The notes beneath the pieces were generated by a model. It worked only from the letters and a program-made list of their open reading frames with translations. It made no database searches and had not been told where the DNA came from. DNA of 34,202 nt from Bacillota bacterium (GTDB lineage Bacteria > Bacillota > SHA-98 > UBA4971), in contig DUVA01000025.1 of assembly GCA_012841305.1 (NCBI GenBank), positions 1 to 34,202 on the forward strand. Reading direction: 5' to 3'. The translations under genes and the position numbers were made by a program. Shown here in pieces: positions 10,422 to 14,818 of this stretch (positions are counted from its first letter, which is position 1; each line of letters opens with the position of its first letter).

Positions 10422-11444
10422 TCACCTTCTCTGAAAAGAAACACCTAGCATTCTGAGGACATTAGTTATCCGGTTATAGATGGTAGACCTGTTTGATCCT
10501 GCAAATAGGAGGCCTACCGCGTTCATTCCCTCATCCACAGCCACTGAGCCGGAATCGCCCCCTGCACCCATTTTGCCTGTAAGAATCTGATCCGTGAATG
10601 TCGCTGTCACGTCGTCAGAATAGACAACATTAACTGTGGCATCAACTACCTGTATCTCCCCTTCAGTCACTCCTGTCGTCCGTCCGCTCTTTCTTACACG
10701 AAGTCCCAAATCAGGCTCACGGGAACCTCTTATCTGGCCCAGTTCCAGAATTTCAGGGCTAATCAGCTTGGGACTCAACGGACGGGCAAGCGCGGCATCC
10801 ACCAGATTGGCAGAGTCCGCGAGAGACCTGGCCACTACCTCCACTCTAACCGGGGACCTGCTAACTGCCAGCCATTTATTCATCGCCAGCTCAACAGATC
10901 TGGTTGCAAGACACTTGGGAACCCGTCCGCTCATCTCAACAGGGATAAACCTCTCCAGATAGCCGATTTTGTCTCGTTCCGGCACACCCCCGTCAGCCGC
11001 CCCAGGCTGGAGAATCGGATCTCCCGGTCGAGCCTTGCCGTCCCGTCCGGATGTACCATTGGCTAACACGTGATTGTTGGACAAAATGAACGGTTCACCT
11101 GTCTTTTCATCCCAAACGACGGCTCCGAAAGTCCCTGCCGTGATCTGATAGTGTCCGCAACTCACCCCTGGTCGAGCAGGTCTCATCTGGGAGCATCTTT
11201 CATCGAGAAACCTAAGCTCACCGACTTCAATAACGTCTGTAGGCACACCCCGAACTTCACTGGGCACTAAATCCTCGCCTCTTACGAGAAGCCTGGGAAG
11301 TTTCTTCGTCACCATAACAACTATGCATTCAGAGGCAGTCCTAGTCCCCGCAGTAGTCTTGTAACCTCTGCCTACCCCTACAACGTTTTTCATGGACATG
11401 AGCTGCCATGTAGTATCCTTCAAGACATCAACGATTTCGTCCAT
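10422..11444 (-). CDS. Trypsin-like (chymotrypsin-fold) serine protease, no evident signal peptide
   Basis: FILSNNHVLA (His), LVDAALARPL (candidate Asp), MGAGGDSGSVAVDE (Ser). Confidence 0.82.
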   Translation of the reverse strand: MDEIVDVLKDTTWQLMSMKNVVGVGRGYKTTAGTRTASECIVVMVTKKLPRLLVRGEDLVPSEVRGVPTDVIEVGELRFLDERCSQMRPARPGVSCGHYQITAGTFGAVVWDEKTGEPFILSNNHVLANGTSGRDGKARPGDPILQPGAADGGVPERDKIGYLERFIPVEMSGRVPKCLATRSVELAMNKWLAVSRSPVRVEVVARSLADSANLVDAALARPLSPKLISPEILELGQIRGSREPDLGLRVRKSGRTTGVTEGEIQVVDATVNVVYSDDVTATFTDQILTGKMGAGGDSGSVAVDEGMNAVGLLFAGSNRSTIYNRITNVLRMLGVSFQRR

Positions 11445-11475: not shown

Positions 11476-12675
11476 TCAGAGCCTGTTTTCTATTGCGGAA
11501 GCCACCGCCGCCCTGGCATTTACTAAACCTTCGCCTTGTTGGTCCCTGGGAAATCCGTTCATGGCTGTCGCTGTCTCACAAATGAGCTCCTCTAACTCTT
11601 TCGCCGACAACCCGGGAACCGCGGAGAGGATCAGCGCGGCAACACCTGTCACATGTGGACACGCCATGGAAGTCCCGGTAAGAGTCTTATACCGTTGACC
11701 TGCATACGTCGAGTAGATATCGGTTCCAGGCCCTGTAATGTCAACCTCCGGTCCGGAACTGCTGAATGCAGCGATTTGATCGTCTTGGGTAGAAGCCGCC
11801 ACTGCCACTACGTTAGGATCCCGCGCCGGATATAGGACGGTATTCTGTCCGCCTGTATTCCCGGAAGCAGCCACCAGGAGAACGCCCGCTTCAGCCGCCT
11901 TGCTAATAGCCAGTTCAAGGGCTTTGCCGGAATCGACAGTCCCAAAACTCATGTTGATTATGCTGACACCCTGATCTATACACCATGCGATACCTTGGAT
12001 GATATCGGAAGCCATGCCTTTCCCCTTTGAGTCAAAGGATTTCACTGCGTAAATATGAGCTTCCGGGGCAACCCCGACAACCCCGAACCCGTTATCGAGG
12101 GCTGCGATTATGCCTGCTACATGCGTTCCATGTCCATTGTCGTCTTCCACACCTTCAGTCTCCGAAATGGCGTCAAACCCGGCTTTTACGTTCACCGCCA
12201 AATCCGGGTGGCTCATGTTCACTCCCGTGTCCACCACCCCTACCCGGACTCCCTTCCCTGTAGCGCGCGCCCAGACTGAAGGAGCGTCAATCTTTGTCAC
12301 ACCCCATGGGGTTGTTTGCGTAGAGAACCCCGGACGCTTCACTCCGAAACATCGCACGCACTTCCTTACGTCTGGGGCCGGTGTATCCACTATCGCAAAG
12401 ACGGTGTCATCTTCTATCCATTTTACCTCTCCGTGGCGTGCAAGAAGCGCCATGGCTTGATCCTCTTCCCGAAACACGCAAGCAGCCGCGTTAATTAGAG
12501 GAAGTGCTTTCTTCACACATCCCCCGCAACTCTCCACTATGGAATCGTGCTTCCTGGGATCTGTGTCTGCGTCAAATATGACAATCTTCCGGTGATGTGA
12601 ATCGCAACCGGACTTGACAGCCCTACGAGCCAAAGAAGCAATTGCTATGATGTAGGCAATAACAAAGGAGAACAC
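11476..12675 (-). CDS. Subtilisin-like S8 serine protease with I9-like propeptide and N-terminal hydrophobic segment
   Basis: VGVVDTGVNMSHPDL, DDNGHGTHVAGIIAA, LTGTSMACPHVTGVAALIL. GTG start at 12675 with RBS AGGAGGGAGC. Confidence 0.95.
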   Translation of the reverse strand: MFSFVIAYIIAIASLARRAVKSGCDSHHRKIVIFDADTDPRKHDSIVESCGGCVKKALPLINAAACVFREEDQAMALLARHGEVKWIEDDTVFAIVDTPAPDVRKCVRCFGVKRPGFSTQTTPWGVTKIDAPSVWARATGKGVRVGVVDTGVNMSHPDLAVNVKAGFDAISETEGVEDDNGHGTHVAGIIAALDNGFGVVGVAPEAHIYAVKSFDSKGKGMASDIIQGIAWCIDQGVSIINMSFGTVDSGKALELAISKAAEAGVLLVAASGNTGGQNTVLYPARDPNVVAVAASTQDDQIAAFSSSGPEVDITGPGTDIYSTYAGQRYKTLTGTSMACPHVTGVAALILSAVPGLSAKELEELICETATAMNGFPRDQQGEGLVNARAAVASAIENRL

Positions 12676-12765
12676 TTGAAGCTCCCTCCTTTATGTCGAT
12701 TATCAGATGATAAATGATATTCCACGGGCTCATAATGCGTGAGTGGGTGCCTTTTAGCAGTTGAA

Positions 12766-12793
12766 GAGGCCACGACTTATCGGTCGTGGCCTC
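12766..12793. other. Perfect 11-bp hairpin gaggccacgac-ttatcg-gtcgtggcctc
   Basis: Perfect inverted repeat between the micro-ORFs and the S8 protease. No strong U tract on either strand, so terminator status is uncertain. Confidence 0.8.
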
Positions 12794-12833
12794 AGGTGTG
12801 AGGAGGCTGCGAGTTGGTAGCCAGTCCATGTTA

Positions 12834-12947
12834 TTACGTTTGAGGATAGAAACGCGTCACGACTAGCTTAGCAATACTGACAAGCTGCGGTATCATTAGT
12901 ATGAACAAGAAAACCACCAGCCACCAATTGTCCAGTTGAAGACTCAC
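12834..12947 (-). CDS. Micro-ORF 1: 37-aa membrane peptide VSLQLDNWWLVVFLFILMIPQLVSIAKLVVTRFYPQT
   Basis: Translated by hand (GTG start 12947, TAA 12834). RBS GGAGGAGG about 8 nt upstream. Shares the WW-hydrophobic-Pro pattern with the next two micro-ORFs. Confidence 0.65.
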   Translation of the reverse strand: MSLQLDNWWLVVFLFILMIPQLVSIAKLVVTRFYPQT

Positions 12948-12990
12948 ATTTTAGCCCTCCTCCCCTATATTCCCGCTCGCTGAGACAGCT

Positions 12991-13092
12991 TTACACCTTC
13001 TTTGACCAGATCGGGAAGAAGATTAGGAATATCGGAACGAGCAAGATGAAGAGCAGTATGATTATCCACCAGAATTCCAATTCCTGAGTCAT
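12991..13092 (-). CDS. Micro-ORF 2: 33-aa membrane peptide MTQELEFWWIIILLFILLVPIFLIFFPIWSKKV
   Basis: Translated by hand (ATG 13092, TAA 12991). RBS AAGGAGG. Paralogue of micro-ORF 3 with many synonymous differences. Confidence 0.75.
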   Translation of the reverse strand: MTQELEFWWIIILLFILLVPIFLIFFPIWSKKV

Positions 13093-13171
13093 TTAATTGT
13101 CCTCCTTTCACAGCATGCCTAGCGTTTATGATATACCGGGCTTCCATGAGTTTCGAGACGTGGGACACATC

Positions 13172-13258
13172 CTATATACACATGAAGATCAGGAACAACG
13201 GAACAAGCAACACAAAGAGAAATATGATTATCCACCAGAATTCCAGTTCCTGTGTCAT
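13172..13258 (-). CDS. Micro-ORF 3: 28-aa membrane peptide MTQELEFWWIIIFLFVLLVPLFLIFMCI
   Basis: Translated by hand (ATG 13258, TAG 13172). RBS GAGGAGGAG. Paralogue of micro-ORF 2. Confidence 0.75.
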   Translation of the reverse strand: MTQELEFWWIIIFLFVLLVPLFLIFMCI

Positions 13259-13351
13259 GAGAAACTCCTCCTCTCTTGATAACCCCAAACCCCGGAGAGG
13301 CTGTGGTCTGTACTATAATATGGAGTCATGCCGCACTTTGCTCCCGGAGTT

Positions 13352-13558
13352 TCACGGATCCTGCGTCCGGTCCCTTGTCCTGTCATTCATAGACCGTGTG
13401 TCGCATTCAGGGATAGTGGGGCCCGGGATGAAAAACACAAGGATAGCGCTTACAAGGAACAGAACACTCCCAATGAGATTCAGGATATCTACAATGGACG
13501 ATAAGTTGTTGGGGCTATCTCCGGCATAATGGATCGACCTCTTAGCGAGAACCATCAC
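13352..13558 (-). CDS. Small single-TM hypothetical protein (68 aa)
   Basis: Hydrophobic helix LNLIGSVLFLVSAILVFFIPGP; GTG start with upstream GGGAG; co-oriented with neighbours. Confidence 0.55.
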   Translation of the reverse strand: MMVLAKRSIHYAGDSPNNLSSIVDILNLIGSVLFLVSAILVFFIPGPTIPECDTRSMNDRTRDRTQDP

Positions 13559-13606: not shown

Positions 13607-13969
13607 TTATGCTTTATCCTCAGACTTACCGGGATTTCCGAAAGCATCATGGGATGTCTCAAGAAACTTACGAATTTCAGGCGGGACTTCCCCAAGTTCC
13701 AAGCCGGACAGAGCCTCAATTGCCATATTCATGATGTGCTCTCGAGTCTCGTCAGGCATTGACGCCAAAAACTCCTGGGCTATCCGCGCCATCTGGTTCA
13801 CGTCTTCCAGTTGGGTATCAGTGTAACCAAAGTCTTGTAGCATTGAACGGATTTTCTCAGCATCTCCGGTGGATACGCCGAACTCGCGAACCAACTCGTC
13901 AAGCGACGCATTGTCTGGTTTGTCTCTTCCGGCGAGAAACTCAGACAGCAGATCATCAAATCCACTCAT
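13607..13969 (-). CDS. Hypothetical acidic helical protein (120 aa)
   Basis: Soluble, protein-like composition; co-oriented with neighbours; no family recognised. Confidence 0.7.
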   Translation of the reverse strand: MSGFDDLLSEFLAGRDKPDNASLDELVREFGVSTGDAEKIRSMLQDFGYTDTQLEDVNQMARIAQEFLASMPDETREHIMNMAIEALSGLELGEVPPEIRKFLETSHDAFGNPGKSEDKA

Positions 13970-14215: not shown

Positions 14216-14818
14216 ATGGACTTACAAGCAATCCATGACGCAATATCCGAGCAGAAATTGATCATGCAGAGACTCGAACGCAATATGAGACGGATCGAGG
14301 ATTCATATGGCCGTGTGTCCTCGAGACTTGATGCACTGGAAACCAAGGCTGAGATGCCGCCTAAGGATACCAGCGACAGTCCGAGGTTCAGAAGGGCGCA
14401 TACCGGCGCTGTTCCTCAGAGGGAACAAACCGAAGGCACTGAAAAGGTAGACGAAAAGGTAGACGACAAACCAGAAGGCACACCAGATGATTCTGTCGAA
14501 AAGAAAGAGAGAGCCACAGCATTGACTGCGCGTGTAAAATCGGCTATTCGAAGCTCTCTTCAAGACGGCAGTGTCAATGACGCACTGGATAAGTTTCAGG
14601 CATCAGTGAAACTGACAGACGAGGCTACCGGCGCACTCTCAGAAATTGCGTCCCTTGTCAAAGCGTCCTTGGATCAAGATCAGGGCGTCATGAAACTGGG
14701 CTCAATGCCTGTTCCCGGAGGCTCGCTTAGCCTGCTCTTGGAGATGGCGAAAACACCGCAGTTTCAGCGGTTTATCGCAAATGTAGTAGCGCAAGCACTT
14801 AAGGAAGCTGAAGCTTAG
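14216..14818 (+). CDS. Hypothetical coiled-coil protein (200 aa)
   Basis: N-terminal heptad-like helix, charged linker, helical C-terminus; GTGGGGTGGT upstream of ATG; no family recognised. Confidence 0.7.

Follow-up and report, generated by a model that had tools for sequence, protein, structure and literature searches.

YjcZ-type proteins are tiny sporulation proteins of Bacilli that are very short, single-span and hydrophobic and occur in tandem copies. SpoVM is an amphipathic surface helix, and CmpA is a short protein made in the mother cell that acts in assembly of the spore coat or cortex. Single-helix peptides are also often small subunits of membrane complexes. yjcZ of B. subtilis belongs to the sigma-K regulon (PMC517825), YjcZ is listed among the frequent membrane-associated proteins of up to 50 aa (PMC11796252), and SpoVM, a short mother-cell protein, takes part in assembling the spore coat or cortex (PMC5607322; PMC7911427). 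Here we describe an array of three WW peptides that are likewise very short and hydrophobic, are predicted to be single-span, and are alike to YjcZ in size and apparent regulation, without detectable homology.

The window, i.e., the whole 34,202-nucleotide stretch of DNA that was analysed, corresponds to contig C180 in a draft genome of 2.48 Mb that is fragmented into 278 contigs, the close relatives of which include the Bacillota MAGs UBA4981 and UBA5449. The features of the locus are given below in descending order of position:

14216..14818, plus strand: p200, a helical protein with a conserved C-terminal PEFQ/PQFQ helix
14157..14165, plus strand: CATATAATA, mother-cell-type -10 box of p200
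13607..13969, minus strand: p120, a helical protein, marker of the module
13352..13558, minus strand: tm68, a small membrane protein, upstream of the WW peptides
13337..13344, minus strand: GGAGCAAA, conserved, candidate -35 region that precedes the -10 box by 14 nt
13314..13322, minus strand: CATATTATA, mother-cell (sigma-E/sigma-K) type -10 box of the peptide operon
13172..13258, minus strand: WWa, ATG start, 28-aa hydrophobic micropeptide MTQELEFWWIIIFLFVLLVPLFLIFMCI, Shine-Dalgarno site AGAGGAGGAG
12991..13092, minus strand: WWb, ATG start, 33-aa micropeptide MTQELEFWWIIILLFILLVPIFLIFFPIWSKKV, Shine-Dalgarno site AAAGGAGGAC
12834..12947, minus strand: WWc, GTG start, 37 aa, WW and PQ motif, Shine-Dalgarno site GGGGAGGAGGG
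12800..12817, minus strand: 18-nt element CCAACTCGCAGCCTCCTC / CCAACTCRCAGCCTCCTC, just 3' of WWc
12766..12793, minus strand: hairpin closing the peptide operon, terminator-like with a weak U tract
11476..12675, minus strand: S8 subtilase with an N-terminal hydrophobic segment and a propeptide region

All three micro-ORFs have the translations that the first-pass annotation had given them, and all lie on the minus strand. The strong ribosome-binding site that had been claimed for each copy was recovered as a GGAGG-type site a few nucleotides 5' of WWa, WWb and WWc. A near-identical pair with mostly synonymous differences, which had been described as copies 2 and 3, does exist, but in transcription order it is WWa and WWb; the two are 82% identical and differ by 7.0 synonymous changes (15.3 sites) versus 4.0 non-synonymous changes (56.7 sites). 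WWc is a distinct paralogue of this pair (32% identity to WWa).

A tandem WW array with two or three copies is present in 10 of the 13 genomes of the window's family (f1). Using a profile of the three peptides, the set was found in three more genomes of the same genus, with three copies each, and in six of the sister genus, with two to four copies (E ~1e-18 to 1e-8); just two copies were detected in G012. Orthologues of WWa occur in G002, G005, G006 and the sister genus, those of WWb are 73-97% identical within the genus and 71-80% in the sister genus, and those of WWc occupy the last place of the array in every relative. Between the two genera WWa and WWb retain 71-87% identity, whereas p120 retains 31-36%. 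Pooled pN/pS is 0.16 for WWa, 0.25 for WWb and 0.38 for WWc. These values, well below 1, and the homologous arrays in relatives uphold the earlier proposal that tandem WW membrane micropeptides are under selection. A reading of WWa-WWb-WWc as chance ORFs was ruled out by the conservation and pN/pS. The three genes are protein-coding, selected and tandem, and make up a compact operon that is preceded by a promoter-like element and closed by a hairpin.

The peptide operon is part of a wider conserved multi-gene module that had gone unnoticed in the first-pass annotation. Within the family the gene order is fixed: sucCD, p200, p120, tm68, the WW array, the subtilase, a NAL1-like gene and plsY. 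Homologues of tm68 were found in g1 and in G007 and G010 of g2, as well as adjoining p120 in f15, f23 and f93, but not in every sister-genus genome, and G011 has a WW block with no detectable p120. In G001 the entire block is absent while the flanking genes are kept, with 216 bp from sucD (end at L052:5033) to the next gene (start at L052:5250), so that this genome represents a clean loss of the whole block; it is the only case of conserved flanks without homologues, which had been named as an observation that would speak against the peptides. G003 and G004 were left out of the absence count, since their contigs end just after sucC/sucD. The NAL1-like neighbour (10422-11444), which has a weak likeness to the N-terminal domain of plant NARROW LEAF 1 (Pfam 2.5e-4, below the cut-off), is kept in G001 despite the loss of the module.

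The region 3' of WWc is structured as well. The stretch from 12745 to 12833 folds with -32.2 kcal/mol (z -5.2), and relatives have hairpins at the same position with z from -2.7 to -6.5. The 18-nt element at 12800-12817 is kept with few changes in 10/10 genomes of both genera and includes the anti-Shine-Dalgarno sequence CCTCC, which could pair with the Shine-Dalgarno sites of the peptide genes.

No meaningful match to the WW peptides was found in Pfam, NCBIfam, PHROGs, PDB or Rfam, and a literature search returned no description of the WW peptides or of the p120 cluster. Similarly, p120 has no curated family in Pfam or NCBIfam and p200 has no NCBIfam match; none of the WW peptides, p120 and p200 is covered by a curated family in the libraries searched. 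The AlphaFold models of p120 (helical, pLDDT 56) and p200 (helical, pLDDT 69, pTM 0.28) were both too poor for a fold search. Membership in the YjcZ family, one of the analogies first offered, was not borne out in Pfam or NCBIfam: hmmscan at E<=10 gave no YjcZ family for the window peptides or their distant relatives, although proteins this short may be lost at the HMMER filters. To our knowledge, neither the pattern of WW belt and proline nor the neighbourhood of p120, p200 and subtilase has been described for YjcZ. The family scans gave no sequence match of SpoVM or CmpA to the WW peptides either, and the surface helix of SpoVM differs from their fully hydrophobic span.

The length and hydrophobicity of the WW peptides are shared by type I toxins (Ldr, Ibs, Fst and TxpA/BsrE kinds), i.e., hydrophobic, membrane-depolarising peptides repressed by antisense RNAs, and their tandem copies and strong ribosome-binding sites would also suit such toxins. 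However, no toxin family of Pfam or NCBIfam matches the peptides, Rfam gave no antisense match, sigma-70-like sites on the opposite strand are at chance level (4 versus 2.3, sd 1.7), and the genes form a syntenic block that is conserved vertically over families and has a shared putative promoter of sporulation type. A function as type I toxins, which the first-pass annotation had raised as an analogy, is disfavoured by these findings and appears very improbable.

The promoter-like elements point to sporulation. In Clostridioides difficile, CATATTAT has been called a canonical -10 box of the sigma factors active in the mother cell, and CATATAAT, together with AC, has been described as a sigma-K promoter (PMC3789822). 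In the window's family, CATATNATA lies 5' of the lead peptide gene in nine of ten arrays, and CATATAAT is located 59-66 nt 5' of p200 in 10/10 genomes; a broader form of the box is found upstream of p200 in 15/20 cases versus 3.3 expected. Across all 47 WW clusters, which are not independent but correspond to roughly six to nine lineages, CATANNNTA occurs within 200 nt upstream of the lead gene in 30, versus 1.84 expected from shuffles; among control genes it is found in 4/87. The sequence and spacing of GGAGCAAA are kept in most arrays of the family, and in several lineages the box is preceded at constant spacing by an ACC or TCAC element. As a -35 region, however, GGAGCAAA agrees poorly with the ATA or AC consensus, which counts against a role in sporulation. 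Furthermore, no mother-cell-type box was found upstream of p120, tm68 and most subtilase genes of f1, and a genome search with GCAAA-N13-15-CATANNNTA gave eight sites in the window's own genome (two in the reversed control) and eight in G005 (six in the control), with no clear regulon. Since the peptide operon and p200 both have -10 boxes that fit those of mother-cell sigma factors, we infer transcription by one of these, sigma-E or sigma-K.

The subtilase belongs to Pfam PF00082 (Peptidase_S8; E 1.2e-63, 215.6 bits versus a cut-off of 21.8) and aligns with the solved subtilisin E (3whi) over residues 38-391. Like the Csp-type germination subtilases, it is an S8 protease, and the Csp enzymes are linked to spores; its match to CspBA is weak, however (E 1.9e-10, 39 bits versus a curated cut-off of 1250), and among solved structures ordinary subtilisins are closest to it. 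The presence of a protease in one module with hydrophobic, multi-copy peptides that have a putative mother-cell-type promoter would fit a mother-cell lysis device, in which late, holin-like peptides let the mother-cell membrane break or set the subtilase free as sporulation ends. Yet one weak match to a PHROG endolysin family among 20 peptides (E 0.007) is not meaningful, and we consider such a device distinctly unlikely.

The module extends beyond the family. The phylum sample comprised 399 genomes, ~387 of them outside the window's family, and was searched with a peptide profile trained on f1 peptides only. The two best outside matches, in G231 (E 8e-6) and G334 (E 8e-4), are short WW peptides (e.g. 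MTETIGFWWIFILLLVIFLPLLLIFFIPLSTSK), and both adjoin a p120 homologue and a subtilase; the G334 locus has p200 and two peptide copies in addition. This link is non-circular, since the p120 and subtilase neighbours played no part in the peptide search. With the p120 profile, 34 outside genomes from seven families were found (E ~1e-7 or better; f15, f23, f30, f39, f93, f109 and f122). WW-type peptides lie beside p120 in six of these (f15, f23, f30, f93, f109, f122), as exemplified by MTQELLWWFIIIIPVIIIIPIIFLFFLFPLNAK and MGGHGFNFWWLFIPIIVIIIIPIFFIFFIPLSAANA in f15, often also with a subtilase or p200. Among the p120 neighbourhoods inspected, those of f39 hold p200 and the subtilase but no WW peptide within a few kb, and some in f15 and f30 likewise lack one. 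Homologues of p200 adjoin p120 in f15, f23, f39, f93 and f122, and the subtilase is a partner in f1, f15, f39, f93, f109 and f122. The neighbourhood of p120, p200 and subtilase, often with tm68, is thus conserved beyond f1, in seven or more other families of the phylum. By contrast, the neighbours outside the module vary by family (MCP and his genes, PFK, ComEC, adenine deaminase, a permease). This bears on the idea that the peptides are small subunits of a membrane complex of vegetative cells, e.g. a transporter or oxidoreductase with an accessory helix: the window is indeed rich in membrane and redox genes, but no partners other than p120, p200, tm68 and the subtilase are conserved, so that we regard a vegetative subunit as unlikely.

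Related WW peptides are also present at further loci, distant from p120. L165-L171 (g2) and L173-L177 (G014, G016) hold further families of WW micropeptides, e.g. MAEITKP...WWWIIII...FFLFP; those at L165-L171 have GTGTCAC/T-N-CATATGATA promoters, and one copy of G014 lies ~2 kb from spoIVA. At L033 (G008:C19, 7859-7957) a single WW peptide gene with CATATCAT upstream forms a separate locus and adjoins a gene resembling a pyridoxamine-phosphate-oxidase-type flavoprotein, as judged by eye from its translation. In f93 (L128 and L129), the subtilase/p200 pair is flanked by two MTQTVFWIWLII... peptides that are almost the same; both have GTGTCACC- or GTGACACC-N14-CATATTATA, and they are scattered rather than tandem.

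Of the three analogies first offered, that with small spore proteins fits best, given the mother-cell-type -10 boxes and the spore genes in every carrier tested. Spo0A and SpoIVA are each found in 17/17 genomes of the class, and SpoIVA in 34/34 p120-positive genomes outside the family. Since 40/46 p120-negative genomes carry SpoIVA too, its co-occurrence with p120 discriminates only weakly. G001 retains SpoIVA without the module, which is therefore dispensable for keeping a sporulation gene set. We favour, with a probability of about 0.6, that the WW peptides are micropeptides that span the membrane once, are expressed in the mother cell and belong to a new sporulation module. As judged from sequence, the peptide operon would be transcribed in the mother cell by sigma-E or sigma-K, and each peptide would form one membrane helix with the WW belt at its N-terminal edge and a proline in mid-helix. 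The topology is likely N-out/C-in, the N-terminus being acidic and the C-terminus often basic. The peptides would insert into the mother-cell or outer forespore membranes and, present in many copies, might act there as a membrane scaffold for the spore envelope or as a factor in its assembly. More speculatively, p120 and p200 may act with the peptides on the cytosolic side, and the subtilase may mature or trim a component of the module. A structural or assembly role at the membrane surrounding the forespore would be the most economical proposal. Only tentatively, and at less than even odds, can this be extended to a widespread Bacillota sporulation module of WW peptides, p120, p200 and a membrane-anchored subtilase that builds, remodels or opens the membrane surrounding the spore; the peptides would then be either the part of the module embedded in the membrane or substrates that the protease cleaves.

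Annotation routinely omits genes as short as 28-37 codons, and the WW peptides are among the best conserved parts of the module in many spore-forming lineages, including single-contig genomes. The peptide operon, its promoter, its partners and the natural loss in G001 provide a precise test set. If the peptides do act in sporulation, a conserved membrane and protease module would be added to spore formation outside the Bacillus model.
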